Positions 2,652-46,839 of a DNA stretch of 64,000 nucleotides are shown here, piece by piece. The first letter of the stretch is position 1. Every line of letters starts with the position of its first letter. The translations under genes were made by a program, and so were the position numbers. Source of the DNA: Pseudoflavitalea sp. G-6-1-2. Lineage in GTDB: Bacteria; Bacteroidota; Bacteroidia; Chitinophagales; Chitinophagaceae. Location: NCBI RefSeq assembly GCF_012927185.1, contig NZ_JABBGB010000003.1, forward strand, positions 186,001 through 250,000, read 5' to 3'. The notes under the pieces were generated by a model. The model saw only the letters and a program-made list of their open reading frames with translations, did not search any database and was not told the origin of the DNA.

Positions 2652-3188
2652 ATGCATAGTGGTGGATTTATCATTGATAAGATTACAGATTGCATTATTG
2701 AAGTAAAATCTGGTAAGAAATTCGAGACTGAGATTTCAAGGGTTACGAATGCTGATTTGAAAACGGTGCTGAAGAAGAATGGATGGAATTTTAACTGGAG
2801 GAAGGAGTTTAATGATCCGGAGAAACAGGTGTACAAATTGAAAGCGGAAGAAGGTGATGACAGGATTCAGGGACTGATCAGTGTAATTCCCAGACCAGAG
2901 AATCTTGCATATGAAATGATCCTGGTTGAAACAGCGCCTCATAATTTCGGAAGAAGAAAACTATATGATGGTGTTCTTGGAAATCTGGTTGCTTATGTTT
3001 GTAAAATGAGCTTTGAAATGAAGTTTGGTGGTGTAGTATATTTTATTCCTAAAAACTCTTTAATTCAACATTACCGGGTAAAATTGCGTGCAGAAGTAAT
3101 TCACCAAAATCGGATGGCCATTTATCCGGAAGATGCCATGTTTTTAAAAAATTCGTATTTTAAAAATTTCGATTATGATCGTACTTGA
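2652..3188 (+). CDS. Unknown protein with GNAT-like C-terminal half, first gene of a two-gene unit
   Basis: A 178-residue protein I cannot name. The first 60 residues are basic and mixed (many K and D) and could be a small separate domain. From about residue 75 the pattern of strands and helices, IQGLISVI, YEMILVETAPHNFG, a helix with LGNLVAYVCKMSFE, VVYFIPK and a final AMFLKNSYF, looks like a degenerate GNAT acyltransferase fold. The usual R/QxxGxG/A loop is not evident, so acetyl-CoA binding is uncertain. The start at 2652 is the first ATG. It overlaps the next gene by 14 nt, which points to translational coupling. The pair lies between pdeM and the helicase and is visibly AT-richer than both, suggesting acquisition. 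A toxin-antitoxin-like pair is one possibility, not shown. Confidence 0.65.
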   Translation: MHSGGFIIDKITDCIIEVKSGKKFETEISRVTNADLKTVLKKNGWNFNWRKEFNDPEKQVYKLKAEEGDDRIQGLISVIPRPENLAYEMILVETAPHNFGRRKLYDGVLGNLVAYVCKMSFEMKFGGVVYFIPKNSLIQHYRVKLRAEVIHQNRMAIYPEDAMFLKNSYFKNFDYDRT

Positions 3189-3489
3189 TGATGCATTCTG
3201 GACTCTGGCAGAGAGCACAGTTGATCTCAGCCAACTCACTGAAAAGGAAAAGAAGGAACTACTAAAGAACTCAAGAATGAATTACAGGGAAGATGTGCGG
3301 AAAAGAACCTTACCCCCACCGACGCAGGAGGAACTGATAAGAGGATACCACTCCTTGCCTGATATCATTGGAAGTCAGAAAAAAATCAGCAAGAAGCAGC
3401 AGGAAAGAGATTCCTTATGTTTTCGTGCGTATATGGCTGTACGCAAAGCCTATCAAAAAACAGAAGCCGAGTTACTTCAACCAGCTTAA
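3175..3489 (+). CDS. Small partner protein of the two-gene unit, unknown function
   Basis: A 104-residue highly charged, probably alpha-helical protein with no signal peptide or membrane segment. It opens with MIVLDDAFWTLAESTVDLSQ, followed by a lysine/glutamate-rich helix (LTEKEKKELLKNS), a proline-containing linker (TLPPPTQEEL) and a basic C-terminal helix. It begins inside the end of the preceding gene (14-nt overlap), so the two products are very likely made together and may bind each other. I know of no function. Size and charge would suit an antitoxin or adaptor, but no DNA-binding motif is recognisable. The gene ends 9 bp from the stop of the convergently transcribed helicase. Confidence 0.62.
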   Translation: MIVLDDAFWTLAESTVDLSQLTEKEKKELLKNSRMNYREDVRKRTLPPPTQEELIRGYHSLPDIIGSQKKISKKQQERDSLCFRAYMAVRKAYQKTEAELLQPA

Positions 3490-35762: not shown

Positions 35763-36224
35763 ATGATCAAACTTCAGGTAATTGGCAATCTTGGAAAAGA
35801 TTGCGTGACGAACACAGTGAACGGGAAAAATGTAATCAACTTCAACGTAGCGCATACAGAGAAATTCAGAGATGCCCAGGGCAATCAGAAAGATAAGACC
35901 ATCTGGGTAGAGTGTGCATACTGGACTGAGCGTGTAGGCATTGCACCTTACCTCCGCAAAGGCACACAGGTGTATGTAGAAGGTACTCCCGAAGTGCGCA
36001 CGTATCCGAAGAATGATGGCACTACCGGCGCTTCACTCACACTCCGTGTACTGAGTGTGCAATTGCTGGGACAACGTACCGAAGGTGGAGACAATACAGG
36101 AGGCGGCTACCAGTCTGGTGGCAACTACAATTCCGGAGGAAATTATAACAGTGCGGCTCCGGCACCCGTTCAGGCAGCTCCGGCTGGCAACAGCGGAGAA
36201 TCTTATGATGATTTACCGTTCTAA
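35763..36224 (+). CDS. ssb: Single-stranded DNA-binding protein
   Basis: A 153-residue cytoplasmic protein with one OB fold (residues 1-105, opening MIKLQVIGNLGKDCVTNTVNGKNVINFNVAH), a glycine/asparagine-rich linker (about 108-135, GGGYQSGGNYNSGGNYN) and the acidic partner-binding tip SYDDLPF. It coats single-stranded DNA in replication and repair and recruits partners by the C-terminal tip. Many Bacteroidota carry several SSB paralogues, and this short form may not be the main one. A terminator follows at 36244-36274. No promoter box was seen in the 100-bp gap after the M14 peptidase. Confidence 0.95.
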   Translation: MIKLQVIGNLGKDCVTNTVNGKNVINFNVAHTEKFRDAQGNQKDKTIWVECAYWTERVGIAPYLRKGTQVYVEGTPEVRTYPKNDGTTGASLTLRVLSVQLLGQRTEGGDNTGGGYQSGGNYNSGGNYNSAAPAPVQAAPAGNSGESYDDLPF

Positions 36225-36243: not shown

Positions 36244-36274
36244 AAAAGCCCTGGCGATTTGCCGGGGCTTTTTG
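36244..36274 (+). terminator. Intrinsic terminator of ssb
   Basis: Stem of 8 GC-rich pairs (36248-36255 with 36261-36268, one T-G wobble) extended by four A-T pairs, then TTTTT at 36269-36273. It starts 19 bp after the ssb stop. Confidence 0.88.
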
Positions 36275-36300: not shown

Positions 36301-36447
36301 GCACAAGGGATCTATGAAACGGGACGAAAAATCTGCCCGGCAGTGCAGAATGATATTTGGGCTGGAGCAAGGAGGATGAAGCAATAGATCTGCTCCGGAC
36401 TTTGGTGCAACAGATTTTAAGGCCCCTTTTTCATAGATCCCTTGTGC
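36301..36447 (-). repeat. Palindromic element, copy 1
   Basis: A 147-bp element between the convergent ssb and YkuD-like genes. Its ends are a perfect 19-bp inverted repeat: 36301-36319 (GCACAAGGGATCTATGAAA) and 36429-36447. The 31-bp core lies on the minus strand at 36394-36424, begins GGCCTTAAAATCTGTTGCAC and ends AAAGTCCGGA. The opposed box CTGCCGGGCAGATTTTT is at 36327-36343 (minus strand). The inner stem AAAATCTG/CAGATTTT (36411-36418 with 36328-36335) continues the fold. It resembles copies 2 and 3 in core but not in outer arms. There is no ORF. Confidence 0.85.
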
Positions 36448-36480
36448 CCGGATCGCTGGAGGTGCAACGGGTGGGAGGAT

Positions 36481-37773
36481 TTATTCCTTCTCGAATCTTC
36501 GAACGGTTTCTTCCAAATCCGCGCGGGTAACAGGCTTATGCTGATGATCGATATTTATCACAAAAAGAAACCCCTTACTGCCGGGTGTAGCCGAAAACGC
36601 ACTCACGAGATTGAACTGTTCGCTGACAAGTAATCTGCCATTGGTGGTATTCCAGAGTTCCTTCGCAGCGAGACATCCCATGGTAGGTGTGAGAGGATAG
36701 TATGGTTTGTTTTTGAAATATTCCGGATCGATGGCCGTGCCATGCGCAATGATCTCCGTTCGCCCGATCTGGCCTGCATTGAACACTTCCTGCATCGGCG
36801 CGTACTGTGCCCACGCTGAAGGAAGCAACAGGTTGTAAAGTTGCTGCACATTCTGCGAGCTATCCCACGGAATAGAATCAGGCTGCTGAAAGTATTGCTG
36901 CCAGCGGCTTTCAAAAGGCATCACCAGTTGCAGGTTCGGTGTAGGGCCAATCAGCTGACTTTTTGAAACCGCTATTCCCTGAATGCTGTACACGCCCTGC
37001 GGTGTACTGCCATTGGTAATAAAATAAGGAAGATCGGAAGCGGAGCGGGCGAGTTGTTCAAAGATCATCAGTCGCCCATCGGCATGCCGCGCGAAACGCC
37101 CATCTGCATTTTGCACGATTGCGATGCCCGGCTGATCTCTGTCCCATCGTTGTATCGAGTAAATGGATTTGCGTTTTGCATTTCTGTTATGGCGAAACAA
37201 CACAGCCAGATCAGGGGTAGATGATCTTATCTGCGCCGCATGATTGTTGAGGAACTTCTCCAGCTCCAGCAGAATCGGGTTGCTGTCGTATTCCGGAAAC
37301 TGATCGATCATGGCAATCTTCAGCATGTTTGCGTTGCTGATACTGCTGTCCTTCCTGAAAAGATAGGCAGCAGCCATGGCGAAGAGTTTGGGAACGGTAT
37401 CGGTAGTGAGGGCGGCGCTCACCTCGCCCACGAATTCATCGGGATATACCGCGTAAGTGGCTTCAAGCAATGCGCGGCGGGTATCGTACTCCAGCAGTGG
37501 ATATCGGTTGAAGAGGTGTTGCAGTCCAGCTTTGATGGTATCGTTGCGCAACTGAAACTGCGAAATGGCATTGCAGGCCGATTCGAATTTGTATTCATTG
37601 AGGCTGTCGGGTTGCATAGCAAAAGTGTAAGCAACCACGCGCTGACGCAGTTCAAAATCGAACTGTTGCTTTTTGCCATAGAGTACAAAACTGCTGTAAA
37701 TATCATCGCGACGCTGCTGGGCAATGCCTTCGCAGCAAATCAATACCAACAGAATGAACGCCCATATTTTCAT
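36481..37773 (-). CDS. Exported protein with divergent YkuD (L,D-transpeptidase-like) motifs
   Basis: A 430-residue protein with signal peptide MKIWAFILLVLICCEGIAQ. I do not recognise the whole, but the second half carries the motif series of YkuD domains: TPQGVYSI at 257-264 (compare TPxGxF/Y), HGT at 344-346 and a cysteine C367 in TPTMGC, equivalent to the S-x-G-C of the family. The distance between HGT and C367 (about 20 residues) is right for YkuD. The arginine that usually follows the cysteine (GCIR) is replaced (GCLAAKEL), so activity is uncertain. The N-terminal half (residues 20-200) is helical and unknown. An enzyme linking or editing peptidoglycan peptides in the periplasm is the best guess. 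It is monocistronic by context. Confidence 0.6.
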   Translation of the reverse strand: MKIWAFILLVLICCEGIAQQRRDDIYSSFVLYGKKQQFDFELRQRVVAYTFAMQPDSLNEYKFESACNAISQFQLRNDTIKAGLQHLFNRYPLLEYDTRRALLEATYAVYPDEFVGEVSAALTTDTVPKLFAMAAAYLFRKDSSISNANMLKIAMIDQFPEYDSNPILLELEKFLNNHAAQIRSSTPDLAVLFRHNRNAKRKSIYSIQRWDRDQPGIAIVQNADGRFARHADGRLMIFEQLARSASDLPYFITNGSTPQGVYSIQGIAVSKSQLIGPTPNLQLVMPFESRWQQYFQQPDSIPWDSSQNVQQLYNLLLPSAWAQYAPMQEVFNAGQIGRTEIIAHGTAIDPEYFKNKPYYPLTPTMGCLAAKELWNTTNGRLLVSEQFNLVSAFSATPGSKGFLFVINIDHQHKPVTRADLEETVRRFEKE

Positions 37774-37868
37774 GCTACAAATGTAATGATGTTGCCTTCA
37801 TTGCAGGAATGCCATAAAATCGCCGTATCTTTTTGCCTCTTTTCATTAAAACTAAACCGATTTAGCCC

Positions 37869-38753
37869 ATGCGAAGAATATTTGTTGCCATCGCGCTCTG
37901 CGCCGGATTATCCACGCTGATCAGCAGCTGCGGTAATCAGACAGCCAAAACCGACGAGGTGGCTGCACAAACAAACGCCGCGGATTCCTCCGTTACATCC
38001 CAATGGAAACTGGGTGTACAATTCTGGACCTTCCATATGTTCCCTTTTACCACTGCGCTGGAAAAAGCGGACAGTGCCGGCATCAAAAATATCGAAGCCT
38101 ATCTGGGGCAACCCATCGGCGGCGATTCGAAAGATACTTTCAACCTTCGTCTCTCAGCCGAAGGAAGACAAAAACTGAAAGCCCTGCTTCAGTCGAAAGG
38201 CATCACCATGGTGGCTTTCGGAGTAGTACAGCCCGGCAACGATGTCGAGTGGAAGCAAACATTCGATCTCGCGCGCGATATGGGCGTAAGCTACATCACA
38301 GCCGAACCGAAAAAAGAACACTGGCATATTGCGGACAGCCTTGCGGGTGTTTACAATATTCCTATTGCCATTCATGATCACCCATATCCGAATGCATATG
38401 CGCATCCTGATTCTGTGATTGCCGCGATGAAGGGCCATCCCAATCTTTATGCCTGTGCAGATCTTGGTCACTGGGCACGCAACGGGCTCGATGTAAAAGA
38501 GTGCCTGCAGAAACTGGAAGGCCGCATCATCGGATCGCATCTGAAGGATATCGTTACATTCAACGATACCAAGGCTGCGGATACCATTCCCGGCAAAGGC
38601 GTGATCAAATTCCCTGAAGTGTTTGCCGAGTTCAAACGTCAGGGTTTTAAAGGCATGTTCTCCATCGAACATGAGAGCAACTGGTACAACAACGTACCGG
38701 ACGTAAAAGAAATAGTAGGTTACTACAATGAGCAGGTGAAAGCATTGAAATAA
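37869..38753 (+). CDS. Sugar phosphate isomerase/epimerase-like (xylose isomerase TIM-barrel) lipoprotein
   Basis: A 294-residue protein with a lipoprotein signal ending in TLISSC (C21) and a Ser/Thr/Ala-rich spacer, so it should be an exported lipid-anchored enzyme. The barrel is of the xylose-isomerase-like/AP-endonuclease 2 family: WKLGVQFWTFHMFPF near the start, GVSYITAEPKKEHWH, PIAIHDHPYPN, ACADLGHWARNGLDV, IIGSHLKDI and FSIEHESNW, which supply the metal-binding E, D, H and E residues of the family. Such lipoproteins are common in Bacteroidota beside sugar-utilisation genes; the substrate is unknown and no partner is adjacent. A strong terminator follows at 38779-38815. Confidence 0.82.
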   Translation: MRRIFVAIALCAGLSTLISSCGNQTAKTDEVAAQTNAADSSVTSQWKLGVQFWTFHMFPFTTALEKADSAGIKNIEAYLGQPIGGDSKDTFNLRLSAEGRQKLKALLQSKGITMVAFGVVQPGNDVEWKQTFDLARDMGVSYITAEPKKEHWHIADSLAGVYNIPIAIHDHPYPNAYAHPDSVIAAMKGHPNLYACADLGHWARNGLDVKECLQKLEGRIIGSHLKDIVTFNDTKAADTIPGKGVIKFPEVFAEFKRQGFKGMFSIEHESNWYNNVPDVKEIVGYYNEQVKALK

Positions 38754-38778
38754 GAAAGAAGAAATCATCAATACATTG

Positions 38779-38815
38779 AATGGTGCAGCCCAGGTTTGGG
38801 TTGCACCATTTTCAT
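38779..38815 (+). terminator. Intrinsic terminator of the TIM-barrel lipoprotein gene
   Basis: A 14-bp stem (38779-38792 with 38797-38810, one G-T wobble, loop GGTT) followed by TTCATTT. It lies 25 bp after the stop codon and 18 bp before palindromic element 2. Confidence 0.88.
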
Positions 38816-38832
38816 TTCGAAGCATCAGCGAT

Positions 38833-38990
38833 GGTCTGAGCCGGGGGAGCTCCTGCAACGGCCTTCAAATATGTTGCACGAAAGTCCGGAAGTCTTACTG
38901 CCGCCCAATCCTGCCCACTACAGTCTTATCGGAGTTACAACCCTGCCCGGCATATTTGGCGACGGCGCAGGAGCGCCCCCGGCTCAGACC
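38833..38990 (+). repeat. Palindromic element, copy 2
   Basis: A 158-bp element between the TIM-barrel lipoprotein and the Ldh-type gene. Its ends are a 24-bp inverted repeat matching at 23 positions: 38833-38856 and 38967-38990. The core at 38860-38890 begins GGCCTTCAAATATGTTGCAC and ends AAAGTCCGGA, identical to copy 1 at 28 of 31 positions. A second box AATCCTGCCCAC is at 38907-38918 and the opposed box CTGCCCGGCATATTT at 38943-38957. The outer arms have no sequence similarity to copy 1 beyond a GGGA centre. The remaining gap to 39072 shows nothing else. Confidence 0.85.
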
Positions 38991-39071
38991 TGCCCACTGC
39001 ACAAACAACGCAATTGATTTTCCCAATAATCAGTAGCTTGCCCTTCTTTTTACAGCACCAATCTATCCAAT

Positions 39072-40157
39072 ATGGCAGACAGGATCTATTCTTACCAGCA
39101 GCTCAAAGCCTTCACGGAAAACGTATTCAAAAAGATCGGATGCAGTGACGAACAATCCGCCACTGCCGCAAAAGTATTGTTGTCCGCAGATCTCCGCGGC
39201 ATCGACTCTCATGGCGTTGCCCGCCTCAGCGGCTACGTTCGCCTCTGGGAAGTGAAGCGTGTGAATGCGACTCCCAATATCCGCATCGTGCACGAAACGC
39301 CCTCCACTGCTGTTGTTGATGGTGATAGTGGTCTCGGATTGGTAGTGGCTCCTTATGCCATGCAGGTAGCGATCGAAAAAGCGAAGAATGTAGGATCGGG
39401 ATGGGTGAGTGTAGAAAACAGCAACCACTTCGGCATTGCAGGTTATCATGGCATGATGGCCCTCGAACACGATATGATCGGCATTGCCATGACCAACGCT
39501 AGTCCGCTTGTGTCGCCGACCTTCTCTCAGGAAAAACTGCTCGGCACCAATCCCATCTGCGTAGCAGTGCCTGCAGGAACTGAACAACCTTTTGTTGCCG
39601 ATCTGGCTACCACCACAGCAGCCAACGGAAAACTCGAAATACTCCAGCGCAAGAATCTCGATGCACCACTCGGATGGGTGCAGGATGCCAATGGTCAGTC
39701 CACTACCGATGCACATGCCGTAAAATCAGGCGGGGCGCTGCTTCCGCTTGGTGGCGATCGTGAGCACGGCAGCCACAAAGGGTATGCGCTCGGCGCCATG
39801 GTAGACATTTTCTGCGGTGTTCTCAGCGGAGCGAATTACGGTCCATGGGTGCCGCCATTCCCGGCCTATGTGCCCATGCCGCCCACCATGCCGGGCAAGG
39901 GGATCGGACATTTCTTCGGAGCCATGCGCATCGATGCATTCCGACCAGCTTCCGAATTCAAAGACAATATGGATAACTGGCTTCGCCGTTTCAGATCTGC
40001 CAAAGCCATTCCCGGCGAAGAACGCGTGCTGGTTCCCGGCGATCCCGAAAGAGAAACGGAAGCCATCAGAATGAAGGAAGGCATTCCGCTGATAGAGCCC
40101 GTAGATGCAGACCTGAAACAACTGGCAGAGAAACTGGGCATCGCTTTTATCAGCTGA
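39072..40157 (+). CDS. Ldh-family (malate/L-lactate/ureidoglycolate-type) NAD(P)-dependent dehydrogenase
   Basis: A 361-residue cytoplasmic oxidoreductase of the Ldh/YlbC family, which has a fold distinct from classic lactate dehydrogenases. Diagnostic parts are DSHGVARLSGYVRLWE near residue 45, the SNHFGIAGYHGMMAL segment with the catalytic histidine, LLGTNPICVAVP, and the conserved GSHKGYALG loop at about 235. The reaction is 2-hydroxyacid to 2-oxoacid with NAD(P); substrates in the family include malate, lactate and ureidoglycolate, and this one cannot be fixed. It is preceded by palindromic element 2 and followed by a 300-bp gap before lysC. The start is MADRIYSYQQL at the only good ATG. 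Confidence 0.9.
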   Translation: MADRIYSYQQLKAFTENVFKKIGCSDEQSATAAKVLLSADLRGIDSHGVARLSGYVRLWEVKRVNATPNIRIVHETPSTAVVDGDSGLGLVVAPYAMQVAIEKAKNVGSGWVSVENSNHFGIAGYHGMMALEHDMIGIAMTNASPLVSPTFSQEKLLGTNPICVAVPAGTEQPFVADLATTTAANGKLEILQRKNLDAPLGWVQDANGQSTTDAHAVKSGGALLPLGGDREHGSHKGYALGAMVDIFCGVLSGANYGPWVPPFPAYVPMPPTMPGKGIGHFFGAMRIDAFRPASEFKDNMDNWLRRFRSAKAIPGEERVLVPGDPERETEAIRMKEGIPLIEPVDADLKQLAEKLGIAFIS

Positions 40158-40457
40158 TCATTCAGCCGCAATACCATTTTTCCGGCGGGCGAAAAACATC
40201 CTTCCCCAAACAAAAAAGCAATAGCATTACACCATAATGCCCATCTGCTGCGGGTTACAGCCCATCCGCTGTACCATGCGCCAATACTGCATTTGAGTGT
40301 TGCGGGTAATACTAATGTCTGTTAGCTACTTAAATACTACTGAACTGATAGGATTTTGTTGATTGAGCTTTATCTTTGCGCCTGCCTGATTTTCAGGTTG
40401 GGCACATAACTAATTATCAACCAAAACCCGTGTAAAAGCGGAACAAGAGAGGGTAAC
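40158..40457. other. Gap between the Ldh-type gene and aspartate kinase
   Basis: No ORF is credible here. Near 40240-40271 CCCATCTGCTG is repeated as CCCATCCGCTG with a 21-bp period. A TATCTTTG -7 box at 40371-40378 precedes lysC, leaving a leader of about 70 nt. I see no known riboswitch (no lysine-riboswitch pattern). Confidence 0.5.
40371..40378 (+). promoter_or_regulatory. Putative -7 box of the aspartate kinase gene
   Basis: TATCTTTG matches TAnnTTTG, and transcription would begin near 40385, about 70 nt before the ATG at 40458. No TTTG is at the usual spacing; the nearest (40355-40358) is only 12 nt away. Confidence 0.45.
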
Positions 40458-41780
40458 ATGAAAGTAATGAAGTTTGGTGGTACATCAGTTGGCAAACCGG
40501 AGCGCATGCACCAGGTTGCTCAGCTGGTTACAAAACACGAAGAACCCACCATCGTTGTACTGAGCGCGCTCAGTGGAACTACCAATGCGTTGGTAGGTAT
40601 CGGAGAAGCAATGGCAGCCGGAAACAGAGAGCTGGCCAAGCAGCAGATCGATACACTCGAAGCACATTACAAGCAATTCATTCCTTCTCTTGTCAAGACC
40701 ACCGCTGCGCAAACCAAAGCGCAGCAGATTGTAGGTGAGCATTTCGAGTTCCTCAATATCATTTTAAAGATCTCTTTCAGCGAAGCACTGAGCAAAGACA
40801 TTCTTGCGCAGGGTGAGCTGCTCAGCACCAAACTCTTCAGTGTGTTTCTCGAAGAGCAGGGTATTCAGCATGCATTGCTTCCTGCACTGGAGTTCATGAG
40901 CATCGATATTCACGAAGAGCCGCAGATCAGTGCTATCCGCCCGAAGCTGAACGCGATTCTTCAACAGCATACAGATAAAAGACTGTTCATCACACAAGGT
41001 TATATCTGCCGCAACGCAAGAGGCGAAGTAGATAACCTCAAACGTGGTGGAAGCGATTATACGGCTTCACTCGTAGCAGCTGCAGTGAATGCATCTGTTT
41101 GCGAAATCTGGACGGACATCGACGGCATGCACAACAACGATCCGCGCGTGGTGAAGAAAACAGTGGCCATCGAGCAACTGAGCTTCGAAGAAGCAGCAGA
41201 GCTGGCCTACTTCGGCGCCAAGATTCTGCATCCTACCTGCATCTGGCCTGCACAACAGGAGAAAGTGCCTGTGAAGCTGCTCAATACCATGCAGCCCGAA
41301 GCGGCAGGTACCGTTATCATGGAAGATGCAGGTTCCGTAGGCGTGAAAGCAGTAGCTGCCAAAGACGGCATCATTGCCATCAATATCAAGAGCAGCCGCA
41401 TGTTGCTGGCGTATGGCTTCCTCCGCAAGATCTTTGAAGTGTTCGAGAAATACCGCACACCTATCGATATGATCACCACATCGGAAGTGGCAGTATCGGT
41501 TACCATCGACAGTGGCGCTCACCTGAAAGCCATTGTGAAAGAGCTGGAACCATTCGGAACCATCGAGGTAGAAACCGATCACACCATTATTTCAGTAGTT
41601 GGCAATGAGATTGCGCAGACTAAGGATATTCTTAGTAAATTGTTCGACGCACTCACGCCCGTTCCTGTACGTATGGTGAGCTATGGCGGAAGCAAGCACA
41701 ACGTATCGCTGCTGCTGCCATCATCTTACAAAACCCAAACCCTGCAATTGCTGAATAAAGGACTGTTTGGGCTGGAATAG
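40458..41780 (+). CDS. lysC: Aspartate kinase (monofunctional)
   Basis: A 440-residue enzyme phosphorylating aspartate, the first step to lysine, methionine, threonine and diaminopimelate. The kinase domain opens with KVMKFGGTSVGKPERM; the substrate-binding LKRGGSDYTASLVAAAV is at about 193-209 and WTDIDGMHNNDPR follows. Two ACT-type regulatory segments are at the C terminus (about 305-440, including INIKSSRMLLAYGFLRKIFEVFEKYRTPIDMITTSEV written here only in part as KIFEVFEKYRTPIDM), so feedback inhibition by lysine or threonine is expected. There is no homoserine dehydrogenase domain, so it is the monofunctional type. The next gene starts 30 bp downstream on the same strand. Confidence 0.93.
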   Translation: MKVMKFGGTSVGKPERMHQVAQLVTKHEEPTIVVLSALSGTTNALVGIGEAMAAGNRELAKQQIDTLEAHYKQFIPSLVKTTAAQTKAQQIVGEHFEFLNIILKISFSEALSKDILAQGELLSTKLFSVFLEEQGIQHALLPALEFMSIDIHEEPQISAIRPKLNAILQQHTDKRLFITQGYICRNARGEVDNLKRGGSDYTASLVAAAVNASVCEIWTDIDGMHNNDPRVVKKTVAIEQLSFEEAAELAYFGAKILHPTCIWPAQQEKVPVKLLNTMQPEAAGTVIMEDAGSVGVKAVAAKDGIIAINIKSSRMLLAYGFLRKIFEVFEKYRTPIDMITTSEVAVSVTIDSGAHLKAIVKELEPFGTIEVETDHTIISVVGNEIAQTKDILSKLFDALTPVPVRMVSYGGSKHNVSLLLPSSYKTQTLQLLNKGLFGLE

Positions 41781-41810
41781 CGATAAAAGCATTGTTCACT
41801 CAACAGCCGT

Positions 41811-43040
41811 ATGAAATTAACTGCTCTCCTTGCAAGCCTATGCCTTGTTCTGTCCGCCTTTTCTCAGGAAAGGAACCGCATTCTCGGAACCGTTTCCAAT
41901 GCAGTAACAGGAGTAAGGATACCCAATGCCAGCGTGTTTATCAATGGCACTTCCAGAGGGAGCATTTCAAAAGCAGACGGCAGTTTCGAGCTCAATGATA
42001 TTCCAAAGGGAACATATGAGTTGGTAGTTTCTTCAGTAGGCTATCAAACCATAGTGTTCCCTTTTTCTTCTGATTCGCTTCCCATGATGCTGCACATGAA
42101 GCTCGATGCAAAAGCCGAAGAGCTCGAAGCAGTAACGGTAATTCCATTCGAAAAGAACGGATGGAGAAAATGGGGGAGGGTCTTTACCGAGAACTTCATC
42201 GGTACTTCTGCAGCCGCGAAGGATTGCACTATCAAAAACACCAAAACACTGAAGTTCCGGTATTCTGCTTCGCGCAAAACGCTGGAAGTAACAGCCGACG
42301 AGCCACTCATTATCGAGAACAAAGCGCTGGGGTACCGTATCACTTATCAGCTCGAAGGATTTCTTCACAGCTGGAAGGAGCGCTCTGTAGTGTTTGTGGG
42401 ATATTCGCTTTTTGAAGACCTGTCGGAGAATAAAAAAGACATTCCTTCAAAATGGATCAAACGCCGCAAAGCCGCTTACACCGGCTCTCTCATGCACTTC
42501 GTGCGAAGCCTTTACAACAACCGTCTGGCAGAGAATAATTTCGAAGTGCGCCGCCTCATCAAAGTGCCCAACCTCGAAAAGCAACGGGTTAGGAAGATCT
42601 ATGAGCTCGAAAAGAAGCAGCAACTGAAAGAGGGAGGCCGCATCAGTTTCGAACTGAAGAGTAGTTCTGCCAACAAAGACAGTGTTGGATATTTTCAGGG
42701 CATACTGATGCAGGAAGATTCGCTGGCGCTGATCAGTCGTACCACGCTCACTGCCGACAGCATACTCACTACCGGGGCAGACTCCACGAAAACGCTTTTC
42801 TTCCCCAATTATCTTCAGATCATTTCCAAAGGACTGCCGGAAGAAAAGGAGTTTCTGTATCATTTCCGCATCTTCCGCGAACCGGCCTGGCAGCGATCGC
42901 TGATTATGCTCACGCCACTCGCGCCCGTGGTGATTGAAAAAAGCGGGCTGATGTTTCCGCCTCAGAACATTCTAAGCTCCGAATACTGGGGCTGGAGCGA
43001 AAAGATCTCGCATATGCTTCCCCTCGATTATCAACCCTGA
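41811..43040 (+). CDS. Exported protein with CarboxypepD_reg-like domain
   Basis: A 409-residue exported protein (signal MKLTALLASLCLVLSAFSQ). Residues 24-105 form a CarboxypepD_reg-like beta sandwich (ILGTVSNAVTGVRIPNASVFI, ISKADGSFELNDIPKGTYEL), the domain that starts many SusC/TonB-linked proteins, but no plug or barrel follows. Residues 110-409 are unknown, with the charged segment NKKDIPSKWIKRRKAAYTGS in the middle, and may fold as an outer-membrane or periplasmic domain. It may be cotranscribed with lysC (30 bp apart). Function is unknown; the family is widespread in Bacteroidota. Confidence 0.8.
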   Translation: MKLTALLASLCLVLSAFSQERNRILGTVSNAVTGVRIPNASVFINGTSRGSISKADGSFELNDIPKGTYELVVSSVGYQTIVFPFSSDSLPMMLHMKLDAKAEELEAVTVIPFEKNGWRKWGRVFTENFIGTSAAAKDCTIKNTKTLKFRYSASRKTLEVTADEPLIIENKALGYRITYQLEGFLHSWKERSVVFVGYSLFEDLSENKKDIPSKWIKRRKAAYTGSLMHFVRSLYNNRLAENNFEVRRLIKVPNLEKQRVRKIYELEKKQQLKEGGRISFELKSSSANKDSVGYFQGILMQEDSLALISRTTLTADSILTTGADSTKTLFFPNYLQIISKGLPEEKEFLYHFRIFREPAWQRSLIMLTPLAPVVIEKSGLMFPPQNILSSEYWGWSEKISHMLPLDYQP

Positions 43041-43094
43041 CAGGCACGCAGGCAACTGCGGCTTTTTTGTATTTTGCGCTCATAATTAACCCTT

Positions 43095-43880
43095 ATGCGC
43101 AACCTCCGTTCATTTGTTTTGCTTTCTATCGTCCTTGGCCTTGCCGCCTGTTCCGGGCGTCAGGGACTGCTGACCAAGGTCTGGTTCTATTCTTATGCCG
43201 AGGATACCGATACGCAGGATCCGGCGGACTCCGTACTCACTCCCGTTAACTTCATCAACCTTGAGAGCAGAGGAAAATATACGGCCAGCCTCGACAAATT
43301 CGAACACGGCACATGGACGTTGAAAGATAGAGAGATCGTACTTACGCCGGCATCCGGCAAATCGCGCACCATCATCATCAGAAAGCTCGGAGAGAAAGAA
43401 ATGATTGCAGATGTGAATGCTGCCAATGGCGCCAGCAGCTGGCATCATTTCGAGGGGCTCGATAATCCGGTGGACGATGAAAAAGACAGTCCATTTTCCG
43501 TTACCAATAACAAATGGCGGGTGAAAGCCACGCAGAAAGAAACGCCTCAGCAGGTAACTGAGCGGCTCATCAACTATTTCAGATTCTGGGAAAAATACTT
43601 CGGGTGGGGATTGGAATCGGATAAGAATTCACTCGATGTAAGAAGCCTGCCTGGTCCGCTCAAAATGTACGGCAACGGCTTTGCGTTGATCCCTGTAGAT
43701 CAGTGGCCGGCCGAATGGAGCAATTACTTCTTCGATCAGGAAGATCGTCAGGTAGCCTTCGATAAGATCCGTTGGGTGCTTCGCAACAAGAAAGTTGCAT
43801 GGCCCGAAACCGGCCACCGCTTCAAGCAATTCATGAGTGTGTTTCAGCAAATGCAAAACAACATCAAAGCAGCTCCATAA
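43095..43880 (+). CDS. Lipoprotein of unknown function
   Basis: A 261-residue lipoprotein with signal ending in GLAAC (C19). Residues 20-130 resemble a lipocalin-like strand pattern (VNFINLESRGKYTASLDKFEHGTWTLKDREIVL style, in which a new line of the sheet is GTWTLKDREIVLTP), and residues 150-261 form a helical second domain with many aromatic residues (LINYFRFWEKYFGWGLESD). I do not recognise the family. It follows the CarboxypepD_reg-like gene after 54 bp and ends 2 bp from the stop of the convergent esterase gene. Confidence 0.72.
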   Translation: MRNLRSFVLLSIVLGLAACSGRQGLLTKVWFYSYAEDTDTQDPADSVLTPVNFINLESRGKYTASLDKFEHGTWTLKDREIVLTPASGKSRTIIIRKLGEKEMIADVNAANGASSWHHFEGLDNPVDDEKDSPFSVTNNKWRVKATQKETPQQVTERLINYFRFWEKYFGWGLESDKNSLDVRSLPGPLKMYGNGFALIPVDQWPAEWSNYFFDQEDRQVAFDKIRWVLRNKKVAWPETGHRFKQFMSVFQQMQNNIKAAP

Positions 43881-43882
43881 AA

Positions 43883-44809
43883 CTATTTGCCTCTGATGCC
43901 TGGTTTGCCATCGAACACACGGCCAAGCCAGGCATTCATGGCATCCATCCACTTCACGGAACTGGTGGGATTGTTCATCCCAAAACCATGTCCGCCATTC
44001 GGATATTCAAATATCTCCACAGGCACTCTATTCTCCTTGCAGGCGGCATAGAACTGACGGCTGTTCTGAACTGCCACCGATTTATCGTCCACTGCATGCA
44101 CTAAAAATGTAGGAGGTGTTTCACTGGTCACCTGCTGATCGTTGGAGAACTCTTTGATCTCTTCAGCAGTGATTTCCGGACCAACAAGATTATTGCGCGA
44201 TTGCTTATGTGTAAGGCTGTCTTCAAAACTGATCACCGGATAAACCAGCACCATAAAATCAGGACGCAGATTTGAGCCCTTTGCACCGGGAATGAAAGCC
44301 TGCTTGAAATGCGTTCCGGCAGTAGAAGCGAGGTGACCTCCGGCTGAGAAGCCCATAATGCCTACCCGATCTTTTTTGATACCATATGATCTCGCTTTTT
44401 CCCGAACCAGCTGAATGGCGCGTTGCGCATCTTGTACTGGCCCGATCGATTTATTAGGCATCGTATGTTCATCCGGCAATCTGTAATTAAGTACAAAAGC
44501 GGCAATGCCCATTTCGTTGAGTGCTTTGGCTACATCATGTCCTTCGTGTTTTACAGCGAGTAGTCCATACCCTCCACCCGGACAAATCACCACGGCCTTG
44601 CCATTGCCTTTTCCTTTGGGAGGAAGATAAGCAGTGATCACAGGTTTCGACACCTTGTACGTTCTCACGATGCCTTTATCATCTGCAACGGATTTTTCTT
44701 CATTCACGCCGGGTATGGAATTGGGTATCGTTTTGTAAAGTGGAATTTCTGTTTGTGCGTGTGCCGATAAAGCAGCGCTGCTGAACAGTGCAAGTGTGAA
44801 AGATTTCAT
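43883..44809 (-). CDS. Secreted alpha/beta hydrolase (BD-FAE/acetyl-xylan-esterase-like)
   Basis: A 308-residue exported hydrolase (signal MKSFTLALFSSAALSAHAQ). The oxyanion-hole glycines are in VVICPGGGYGLLAVKHEG, the nucleophile is S155 in GFSAGGHLA, D242 lies in HAVDDKSVAV and H274 in NGGHGFGM, a complete catalytic triad. This pattern matches the BD-FAE/xylanase-lipase-like esterases that remove acetyl or feruloyl groups from plant polysaccharides and are common in polysaccharide-degrading Bacteroidota. No glycoside hydrolase or SusCD pair is adjacent. A consensus promoter lies at 44860-44891. Confidence 0.9.
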   Translation of the reverse strand: MKSFTLALFSSAALSAHAQTEIPLYKTIPNSIPGVNEEKSVADDKGIVRTYKVSKPVITAYLPPKGKGNGKAVVICPGGGYGLLAVKHEGHDVAKALNEMGIAAFVLNYRLPDEHTMPNKSIGPVQDAQRAIQLVREKARSYGIKKDRVGIMGFSAGGHLASTAGTHFKQAFIPGAKGSNLRPDFMVLVYPVISFEDSLTHKQSRNNLVGPEITAEEIKEFSNDQQVTSETPPTFLVHAVDDKSVAVQNSRQFYAACKENRVPVEIFEYPNGGHGFGMNNPTSSVKWMDAMNAWLGRVFDGKPGIRGK

Positions 44810-44859
44810 AATCGATTAAGCTAAAACGTTACAAAATAGCCGCCCGGCAAGGGCTTCTT

Positions 44860-44891
44860 CAAAAATAATGGCTGCTTTCGTCTTTACCAAA
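44860..44891 (-). promoter_or_regulatory. Promoter of the esterase gene
   Basis: On the minus strand TTTG (44888-44891), 20 nt, TATTTTTG (44860-44867) match the Bacteroidota consensus. The leader would be about 45 nt. Confidence 0.7.
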
Positions 44892-44989
44892 AGGGCTTTC
44901 ACAGAATATTAAGTTAAATGGATCTGAATATCGATAAGTTCTGTAACAAAGGCATCCCTTTTGAACGTCTAACTATCAAACGACAGTTT

Positions 44990-45415
44990 ATGAAATACTT
45001 ATACTCCTTCTCTTTACTCGTAGCAGTAACACTCATCTTCACCAGTTGCAGTAAAGATGTATTCAGACCTTATGAAGACAGAATCGAAGGTACCTGGGAA
45101 CTCACCGATGTAGATAAGTTCGGTCCCGGAAGCTCTTACATTGCATTCGACGGTGGTTTGTTTACCTTCTACGGTTCAGGCCGATTGGCATATCAGGATG
45201 GCTATGGCGGTTACTACGAAGGCGACTGGGATGTGCGCCGTATCAACACAAACGACGGAACTATCAAAACCCTCAAAGTAAGTTGTGTTGACTATCACAC
45301 AAAAGATCAGCTCTCTGAATATTTCGATGAAATGATCTTCACCAGCACCAACCGTTTCAAAGCCTTCATCTACGACGGCCCCAGAACGTATACCTTCTAT
45401 TTCAGCAGACGTTAA
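44990..45415 (+). CDS. Small lipoprotein with a lipocalin-like domain
   Basis: A 141-residue lipoprotein; the ATG at 44990 gives signal MKYLYSFSLLVAVTLIFTSC (C20), better than an upstream in-frame start at 44918. The mature part has the pattern of short lipocalin-like/DUF proteins: IEGTWELTDVDKFG, then strands ending in YEGDWDVRRI and RTYTFYFSR, forming a small beta barrel. The GxW motif of lipocalins is visible in GTWEL. The ligand is unknown. It stands alone, with a terminator at 45471-45504 and palindromic element 3 beyond. Confidence 0.78.
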   Translation: MKYLYSFSLLVAVTLIFTSCSKDVFRPYEDRIEGTWELTDVDKFGPGSSYIAFDGGLFTFYGSGRLAYQDGYGGYYEGDWDVRRINTNDGTIKTLKVSCVDYHTKDQLSEYFDEMIFTSTNRFKAFIYDGPRTYTFYFSRR

Positions 45416-45470
45416 ACTCGCTGCGAATATTAGTGAAGAAGTATTGCGATCAACATAAATCAACAGCATA

Positions 45471-45504
45471 ACAAAAGCCGCAGCGATGCGGCTTTTGTGT
45501 TTTC
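45471..45504 (+). terminator. Intrinsic terminator of the small lipoprotein gene
   Basis: A perfect 12-bp stem (45471-45482 with 45487-45498, loop GCGA) followed by GTTTT. It lies 55 bp after the stop codon. Confidence 0.88.
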
Positions 45505-45538
45505 AACAAGTTCGTAAAACCTGCAAAAATAACCTGCA

Positions 45539-45694
45539 GTGTTGCGACGAGGGGATACGCAAATCTGGCCTTAAAATGTGTTGCGCAAAACCTCAAAAAT
45601 ATTCCACCCCTCAATCCTGCGCACAAAAGTTCATCTGTGATTCTATACTGGCCGGCACATTTTTCAGCTAATTTGTGTATCCCCCGCGCAACAC
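45539..45694 (+). repeat. Palindromic element, copy 3
   Basis: A 156-bp element in the convergent gap before the glycosyltransferase gene. The arms 45539-45564 and 45671-45694 pair over about 24 positions with two one-base bulges and one G-to-A change; the first arm starts GTGTTGCG and ends ACGCAAAT. The core at 45567-45597 begins GGCCTTAAAATGTGTTGCGC and matches copy 1 at 21 of the first 24 positions; AATCCTGCGCAC is at 45613-45624, at nearly the same offset as in copy 2. The opposed box CTGGCCGGCACATTTTT is at 45648-45664. The outer arms again differ in sequence from copies 1 and 2. Confidence 0.85.
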
Positions 45695-45705
45695 GGTATA
45701 ATCAA

Positions 45706-46839
45706 TTAAGTATTCTGCCCTAACAATTTCAAATAGATCGCTTCAATCTCCCTCGTCATATTCGCCGCACTATATGTTGCACTGATTGTCGCCTGTGCAG
45801 CGGCACCCAACTTCTCGCGAAGCGATACATCTTCAGCAAGCACTCCGAGAGCCGCAGCCAGATTAACTTCCAGCCCATCCGTTGAAATCAGCAATCCGTT
45901 GTGTTCGTGCCTGATCACTTCCGATGTTCCATCTACCTGCGTTCCGATAATGGCCTTACCCATTGCCATCGCTTCGAGTAATCCGATCGGTAATCCTTCC
46001 CAGAGCGAAGGCAATACAAAAATATCCGCAGCTGCCAGCACATCCGGTACATCCTGACGGAAGGGTTGAAATATCACTTTGTCTTCGATGCCGAGTTCGC
46101 GTACCAGTTGCAATGCAGCTGGTTTCTCATCGCCATCACCCACCATCAGCAACTGCAGCTGAGGGTGATGAGGCAATGCCTTTGCAAATGCCTCCAGCAA
46201 TTTCAGCGGCTGCTTCTGATGAATAAAACGTGCTACAAACAGCACCAGCACTGCATTATCAGCGATACCCAATTCCTGTCTGATATTCTTGAACGATCGG
46301 CCCGGATCGAACTTACGCTGATCGATTCCGTTGTTCACCACTACCGAGTTGAAATTATTGAAGTATCGTTTTCCTGTCTGCTGATTGGAAGCAGACACCG
46401 AAATATTTACGTCTGATTTTTTCGTGAGCAGCTGTTCTCCCATCACGCGCACTTTGCGAAGCAGCGCCTGCTGATCGTCGTGAAAGCTCCATCCGTGAAT
46501 GGTGTATACCAGCGGCAGTTTCAGTTTACGCGTAGCCCAGAATACGTTTGAATTGGCGCGTGTACCATGTGCATGCACCAATTGTATCTGCTGTTGTTGT
46601 ATGAACTGCTTTACACGTTTCCACTTGCTTATGTCGAAAGGCTTTTCGGTATAGATCACTTCGGTGGTGATGCCCATTTGTTTGAGACGATCTACCATCG
46701 GACCATCCGTAAAGCTGAGCACTACCGGCTCAAAGCGGCTCCTGTCGAGGTTTTCAACGAGACTCAATAAATGACTTTCTCCGCCACCGATCTGTCCCTG
46801 ACGGATTGTTTCCAGTATCCTGAACTTTTGATTGCTCAT
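45706..46839 (-). CDS. GT4-type glycosyltransferase
   Basis: A 377-residue cytoplasmic or membrane-associated glycosyltransferase of the GT-B fold. The N-terminal domain starts with the IRQGQIGGGESHLLSLVENL loop that binds acceptor or donor phosphate, and the C-terminal domain carries the E-x7-E motif in PSLWEGLPIGLLEAMAMGK that binds the sugar nucleotide. It transfers a sugar from an activated nucleotide donor, probably in lipopolysaccharide, capsule or exopolysaccharide assembly; donor and acceptor are unknown. No other glycan gene is nearby. The gene is downstream of queA in the same direction after a 117-bp gap that holds a terminator. Confidence 0.9.
   Translation of the reverse strand: MSNQKFRILETIRQGQIGGGESHLLSLVENLDRSRFEPVVLSFTDGPMVDRLKQMGITTEVIYTEKPFDISKWKRVKQFIQQQQIQLVHAHGTRANSNVFWATRKLKLPLVYTIHGWSFHDDQQALLRKVRVMGEQLLTKKSDVNISVSASNQQTGKRYFNNFNSVVVNNGIDQRKFDPGRSFKNIRQELGIADNAVLVLFVARFIHQKQPLKLLEAFAKALPHHPQLQLLMVGDGDEKPAALQLVRELGIEDKVIFQPFRQDVPDVLAAADIFVLPSLWEGLPIGLLEAMAMGKAIIGTQVDGTSEVIRHEHNGLLISTDGLEVNLAAALGVLAEDVSLREKLGAAAQATISATYSAANMTREIEAIYLKLLGQNT

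Follow-up and report, generated by a model that had tools for sequence, protein, structure and literature searches.

A structured, strand-biased hairpin repeat family at gene 3' ends in Pseudoflavitalea

A family of long hairpins held by pairing

The window analysed here, a stretch of 64,000 nucleotides of Pseudoflavitalea sp. G-6-1-2 (contig NZ_JABBGB010000003.1, positions 186,001 to 250,000; here denoted the host), carries three copies, e1, e2 and e3, of an intergenic palindromic element. We show that they belong to a structured, strand-biased and partly site-retained repeat family located at gene 3' ends. Each copy is a hairpin of about 150 nucleotides consisting of an outer stem (P1), an inner stem (P2) and an apical loop rich in C and poor in G. 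An earlier note on this DNA had argued for a functional RNA or a mobile palindrome rather than chance. The elements are not a product of chance and their structure is conserved; either of the two readings may be right.

Within the window, the 5' box, GGCCTTMAAATNTGTTGCRC, has exactly three matches at up to three mismatches, where shuffled sequence would give 0.08. Exact matches to the 3' box, CTGSCSGGCANATTT, also number three, and at up to two mismatches there are seven versus 2.1 expected. The three elements each fold into one long hairpin far better than shuffled sequences do (z of -5.7, -6.0 and -6.7 for e1, e2 and e3).

The sequence of P1 varies from copy to copy, with both arms of each copy remaining complementary; its median length is 24 bp in the 59 copies of the host genome and 23 bp in 43 copies from elsewhere. 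P2 pairs AAATNTG with CANATTT, followed by a UU/GG that is invariant in 29 copies, and shows compensatory variation that gives GC, CG or AU at one pair and GC, AU or CG at another. We measured covariation in two separate alignments. The host alignment started from 30 loci, six of which repeat another locus and two of which lack the structure; 30 elements remained and 29 were used. It scored 0.525, compared with 0.163 when letters were shuffled and 0.095-0.156 when the partners were slid along the stem. Standard pairing occupied 83.8% of pair cells, and both sides had changed in 24 of the 30 pairs. The second alignment, of copies from three sister species, comprised 37 of 43 non-host elements (leaving out four whose core is of the host type, and two more) and scored 0.454, versus 0.188 for shuffles and at most 0.220 for slid partners. 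A coding reading was rejected, as insertions and deletions of 1-3 bases break any shared frame and pairing explains the variable positions of P2. The earlier statement that no open reading frame (ORF) is present holds in substance, even though a mechanical 86-amino-acid frame opening with TTG spans e2.

Mismatches within P1 indicate which strand folds. Across 102 stems we counted 36 G.T against 11 A.C mismatches (p = 0.0003), and in the host alone 27 against 8 (p = 0.002). By our own argument, mutation alone should yield the two in equal numbers, so the excess of G.T implies that the strand bearing GGCCTT...CCGGCA is the one held in pairing. This shows that the folding strand is that of the box picked out in the earlier note, as RNA or as single-stranded DNA.

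The apical loop has a C content of.31 and a G content of.16 in the host and of.39 and.10 in the other copies; a reading of this C-rich, G-poor loop as a Rho utilisation (rut) site is only suggestive. Within the apical 60-70 nucleotides, alternative pairings for a third stem compete in both alignments. A U-tract follows the stem in 4 of 125 copies on the plus strand and in 1 of 125 on the minus strand (5 of 250 stem ends). A two-tetrad G-quadruplex-like motif on the minus strand of the apical loop was seen in 14 of 59 host copies and in 27 of 66 copies of one sister species (G001), above shuffles. Being missing from most copies, it was not used as a feature of the family.

Family size, core types and distribution

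We compared the host (G000) with its genus, in which G001, G002 and G004 are the element-bearing sister species and G003 and G005 two further genomes. In the 6.1-Mb host genome the 5' box at up to two mismatches had 46 matches, versus 8 for a reversed control. A covariance model built from the 29 host copies (R1; 148 positions, 30 pairs) retrieved 59 host copies at E <= 0.001, three of them inside the window, so that the search proposed in the earlier note did yield further copies. The 59 copies occupy 39 places, as 20 pairs and 19 singles.

Copy numbers in relatives are lower bounds, since 53, 7 or 150 candidates were scored per genome, depending on the search. Among 58 relatives, R1 matched in three, all of the same genus (at least 50 copies in G001, 44 in G002 and 50 in G004), and had no match in 53 genomes of other genera at 53 candidates per genome. 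A second model, R2, built from sister-species copies, raised the numbers to at least 113 in G001 and at least 106 in G004; it detected none in G003 and G005 at 150 candidates per genome. R2 also found four copies in G179, a genome of another genus; this assembly is 84% complete with 4% contamination, hence these copies need confirmation. Across 394 Chitinophagaceae genomes, with 7 candidates scored in each, matches occurred in at least 5, host included. A scan of 84,980 species (genome_contigs, which may omit records close to the genome of the window) with the exact two-box pattern of the sister type returned 63 stretches, all from Pseudoflavitalea rhizosphaerae KACC 18655 and one Chitinophagaceae metagenome-assembled genome.

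One exact pattern of each of two core types had no match in viral_contigs, and e2, the one query used against plasmid and phage records, had none there. Rfam 15 gave no match above the gathering threshold in the window and, for the family, sub-threshold matches alone (E up to 1 or 5). We therefore rejected a relative in Rfam and an origin from phage, virus or plasmid for the queries tried. Neither of the findings that the earlier note had named as fatal to its proposal was made: there are more copies in the genome and its relatives, and no Rfam family matches. No published treatment of these repeats was found in the literature, as judged by titles and the beginnings of abstracts.

By eye, the cores fall into at least three types. 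UGUUGCAC...CUGCCCGGCA is dominant in the host, GGGUUGGGC...UUAACCCC is a second type, and the third, UAAGCGAAGAAGC...GCGYYGGU, predominates in the sister copies seen and is represented in the host by two clear copies.

Placement behind genes

Close neighbours point away from each other in 47 of 47 pairs (20/20 in the host and 27/27 in G001). Here and below, genes were called with our own simple hexamer caller and terminators by our own rule, and the G001 geometry rests on the 66 copies in the stretches examined (70 matches less the 4 of G179) out of at least 113. Element places lie between convergent genes in 40 of 77 cases; of the adjacent gene pairs in the G001 loci, counted together with those that bear an element, 49 of 270 are convergent. 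On its 3' side an element has a gene directed towards it in 43 of 59 host copies and 50 of 65 in G001, one of the 66 copies having no called gene on that side. These counts depend on one another, since most follow from outward pairs between convergent genes.

Distances between stop codon and stem form two peaks. The stop lies within 25 nucleotides of the stem, and no terminator stands between, in 20 of 41 host cases and 30 of 45 in G001 (50/86). In most of the remaining cases an intrinsic terminator separates stop and stem (17/21 in the host, the rule giving 16 or 17 such genes with slightly different ends, and 13/15 in G001, 30/36 together). A terminator beyond the element was found for 14 of the 50 abutting genes, a proportion similar to that among genes already having one (8/30). 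Behind element-free last genes terminators are more frequent than this (20/35 versus 14/50, p = 0.013).

Sites compared between species

At several loci the site and orientation of an element are kept between species while the core there is of a different subfamily. At the e1 site the element is kept in the same place and orientation in all three element-bearing sister species, but there it is of the UAAGCG type. At the e3 site each of the three has two back-to-back elements of the UAAGCG type following the same gene; in the host e3 alone is kept, and the 165-amino-acid gene there has an intrinsic terminator where the sisters have the second element. At the e1 and e3 sites no element was detected in the G003 and G005 stretches. 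The e2 site holds another long hairpin in G002 and G004, and in G001 the gene order differs. Synteny with an element locus of the host holds for 7 of the 20 element loci of G001, compared with about 3% expected by area. In each of G001, G002 and G004, one RibD_C gene lies between the two members of an element pair.

Alternative explanations

A purely selfish origin is a close rival, to which we give only slightly less weight than to the explanation favoured in the Discussion. The elements would then be palindromic repeats resembling repetitive extragenic palindromes (REPs), REPINs or miniature inverted-repeat transposable elements (MITEs), moved in trans by a transposase that recognises hairpin and core, tolerated behind genes and between convergent genes, and of no function to the host. 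This would account for position and copy number nearly as well as a functional reading does. The dispersed copies number from 59 to at least 113, the family is patchy within one genus, doublets are typical of such repeats, and REPs likewise lie mainly between unidirectional and convergent genes, according to the relevant passages of PMC3733652. Other REP-like palindromes are also abundant in the genus, as with a 13-mer present 689 times in G004 and a 14-mer present 139 times in G003.

The lack of recent copies in the host speaks against it. Apart from one 3-kb duplication, the closest host copies are about 85% identical and the mean is 59%. The duplicated segment occurs twice at 91% identity (L122:12652-15634 and L123:2839-5826). 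Direct repeats do not stand out clearly: 8-mers are shared across the element in 10 of 125 copies, compared with 5.1 (sd 2.2) after permutation, and 6-, 7- and 9-mers lie within 2 sd. The arms differ between copies, and sites are retained between species. Pair partners in the host form two groups, near relatives (in 9 of 40 rankings the partner is the closest of the 58) and members of distant subfamilies, so that pairs do not arise solely from inverted duplication. The two-peaked stop distance, the retention of sites and the core types specific to lineages also fit the selfish reading less well.

The search for a transposase points the same way. Y1_Tnp matches occur in all six genomes of the genus, including G003 and G005, in which elements were not detected, and at nine Y1_Tnp loci of about 3 kb in the six genomes neither R1 nor R2 found an element at E up to 1. 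The host has an ORF resembling a REP-associated tyrosine transposase (RAYT; NF047646, 57.9 bits, below the cut-off of 80). A similar one is present in element-free G003 (58.2 bits), and the G001 match has in-frame stops. The GT[AG]G foot, sought up to 8 nucleotides from the base of the stem, is present in 4 of 125 copies, versus 17 of 125 for reversed letters. With no element nearby, no such foot and Y1 genes in element-free species, a Y1 or RAYT partner is not supported. Nor, in the five wide pairs scanned, is an autonomous transposon inside a pair: these enclose six ORFs, none of them a transposase (RibD_C in three, one HI0933-like, one ASCH and one without a match).

Some features of these ORFs and repeats are recorded here in their own right. 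The 3-kb segment encodes a 288-amino-acid ORF without a family match and a 128-amino-acid ORF with a weak, sub-cut-off match to SymE. The RAYT-like ORFs of the host and G003 (L120:1198-1794 and L119:1219-1830, both on the minus strand) keep NHLH and read HIHENP where subclass 2.6 has YIH[QN]NP, perhaps lacking the catalytic Tyr, as judged by eye. A 142-amino-acid Y1_Tnp-like ORF (L115:1468-1896, plus strand; about 744.6-745.0 kb of the host contig C3) sits between DAHP synthase/chorismate mutase-like and aroB-like genes in G000, G003 and G004, and carries an apparent Phe (DFIGRQEEYH) at the catalytic Tyr of the motif as presented in the passages of PMC6006769 on these proteins, both by eye. 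The 13-mer, TCGCCTCCGGCGA, has 689 exact copies in G004, 62 in G003, 46 in G001, 17 in G002, 5 in the host and none in G005; by eye, it joins the other long hairpin at the e2-orthologous sites of G002 and G004 (L125 about 364-544 and L124 about 372-544). The 14-mer, TTTTGGGACGAACC, has its 139 copies in G003 and none in the five other genomes of the genus, and four copies or near-copies stand, by eye, at the e1-orthologous site of G003 (L127 about 2800-3250).

The strong structure, the strand bias and the resemblance of back-to-back pairs to divergent transcription units would also fit a family of independent small RNA genes, transcribed divergently from the space between paired copies. The -7 box of Bacteroidota promoters has the consensus TANNTTTG. 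In 43 of the 47 spacers of the host and G001 (four were too short), 10.5 kb in all, it occurs once, the lowest count of 30 permutations of its letters, whose mean is 10. Given spacers nearly devoid of this box, and a single detected copy at 31 of 78 places, we consider small RNA genes very unlikely.

Similarly improbable is a DNA-level site, at which a protein of chromosome organisation or recombination would bind the palindrome as a cruciform or single-stranded hairpin, template switching keeping the arms perfect: near-perfect P1 arms (1,274 and 907 Watson-Crick pairs, 2,181 together, and 36 wobbles) and the 3-kb duplication, whose right end and the 3' end of an element lie only a few bases apart, are in its favour, but the G.T excess favours one strand, though as RNA or single-stranded DNA, and the elements prefer gene 3' ends.

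Relation to known repeats

The hairpin family is a distinct variety among intergenic palindromic repeats and no new class of thing. It shares with REP/REPIN-RAYT systems the multi-copy extragenic hairpins, the inverted doublets, the preference for positions behind genes and a RAYT-like ORF in the host genome. It differs in its length of about 150 nucleotides, compared with the 21-65 given for REPs in the passages of PMC6006769 that define them, in lacking the GT[AG]G foot, in arms that differ between copies, and in having no element beside the RAYT-like ORF, whose like is also present in element-free G003. The same source ascribes 'atypical secondary structures' to the Bacteroidetes RAYT subclass 2.6. 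The hairpin family might prove identical with those structures. REPs are mostly found between unidirectional and convergent genes, as stated in part of PMC3733652.

NEMIS/Correia elements of Neisseria, as outlined in sections of PMC2229807, measure about 107-155 bp and have a stem formed by terminal inverted repeats (TIRs), their RNA hairpins being proposed substrates of RNase III. Length and hairpin stem are thus similar. Correia TIRs, in the same sections, have TA ends and target duplications, whereas each copy of the hairpin family has its own arms and no clear duplication. ERIC/IRU of Enterobacteria, an intergenic repeat of 127 bp whose effect on mRNA stability depends on its orientation, is described in that part of PMC2229807 with a 7-bp TIR, TA ends and target duplications, and is set apart here by description, not by sequence. 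Terminal inverted repeats common to all copies, as in MITEs, are not found; the arms match only within a copy. Intrinsic, bidirectional terminators between convergent genes resemble the elements in position, in their hairpin and in the apparent substitution of an element for a terminator behind the stop. Unlike them, the hairpin family has no U-tract on either strand, has a long conserved internal core and is much larger.

The elements of the window and their neighbouring genes

The three elements lie where the earlier note had placed them and carry the boxes it gave. Its count of 28 of 31 agreeing core positions between e1 and e2 was reproduced by eye. A further box, AATCCTGC, is exact in e2 and e3, while e1 reads CATCCTCC.

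The whole hairpin of e1 occupies 36301-36447 on the minus strand (R1 match C3:222304-222451, minus strand, 106.4 bits). Its P1 pairs 36301-36319 with 36429-36447 and its P2 pairs 36409-36418 with 36328-36337; the 5' box lies at 36405-36424 and the 3' box at 36329-36343. On its 5' flank, at 36457-36468 (C3:222457-222468, minus strand), is a motif, GTTGCACCTCCA, that recurs across copies of the family and is too short by itself for tracing it. A single-stranded DNA-binding protein (SSB) gene (35763-36224, plus strand; PF00436, E = 2.5e-18) and e1 face each other with their 3' ends, an intrinsic terminator standing between the two at about 36247-36274. A 430-amino-acid gene without a Pfam match (36481-37773, minus strand) runs into the 5' side of e1.

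Element e2 (38833-38990, plus strand; R1 match C3:224834-224982, plus strand, 130.7 bits) pairs 38833-38856 with 38967-38990 in P1 and 38866-38875 with 38949-38958 in P2, and has its 5' box at 38860-38879 and its 3' box at 38943-38957.

Element e3 (45539-45694, plus strand) matches R1 at C3:231541-231687 on the plus strand with 124.5 bits. Here 45539-45564 pairs with 45671-45694 in P1 and 45573-45582 with 45654-45663 in P2, and the boxes are at 45567-45586 (5') and 45648-45662 (3'). The stop of a glycosyltransferase gene (45706-46839, minus strand; PF00534) directly adjoins e3 on its 3' side, no terminator separating the two, an arrangement common to the three sister species. From the other side the 165-amino-acid gene (44918-45415, plus strand) converges on e3, with its own intrinsic terminator in the host.

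Discussion

We tentatively favour, with somewhat less than even confidence, an explanation in which an old palindromic repeat family may now serve as a transcript 3'-end element read by a putative factor. The evidence for function consists of the retained sites, the strand-biased wobbles and the 3'-end geometry, and that for a mobile past of the dispersed high copy number. The family would probably have spread first as a mobile palindrome. The hairpin would now be read as RNA. When the abutting gene reads it antisense, the hairpin would close and protect the message of that gene; transcripts arriving from the other side would read it in the sense direction and be stopped or marked before running antisense into the gene. 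Since there is no U-tract, a factor should be needed (Rho, an RNase such as RNase III, or a putative RNA-binding protein). A protein of the last kind would read the internal loop of P2, and a change in the recognising factor would explain why one core type makes up most copies of a genome.

Several observations weigh against the transcript-end explanation or narrow its support. For two of the five covariation measures, 28 and 8 of 500 shuffles reached the value of the real sister alignment. The sister species alone give 9 G.T against 3 A.C (p = 0.15), and a laxer alignment of host stems gives 33 against 16. The rarity of wobbles beside 2,181 Watson-Crick pairs leaves room for correction of one arm from the other at the DNA level. 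The e2 site lacks an element of the family in G002 and G004, and two of the seven syntenic loci match on one side only. Site-mates of the host and G001 hardly resemble each other more than random copies do (the site-mate is the best match in 2 of 11 comparisons); descent is thus read from position, not from sequence, and a hot spot hit twice is possible. Finally, 16 of 59 host copies and 15 of 65 G001 copies depart from the 3'-end geometry, and 15 of 35 element-free last genes likewise have no detected terminator.

A more specific form of the transcript-end explanation is rather doubtful. The elements would constitute a factor-dependent transcript-end class whose internal-loop motif switched genome-wide between sister species at retained positions, dozens of sites co-evolving with one putative RNA-binding factor, and the pairs would insulate convergent genes from read-through. 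If this were true, the class of element would be previously undescribed.

To our knowledge, the ending of transcripts between convergent genes is little described in Bacteroidota. If the family were merely a tolerated repeat, it would still be one for which we found no paper, with stems that stay paired while their sequence changes. A countable, structure-conserved element in the place where a terminator is expected would allow a direct test of how transcripts end, and its lineage-specific core types would offer a handle on the factor that reads them.

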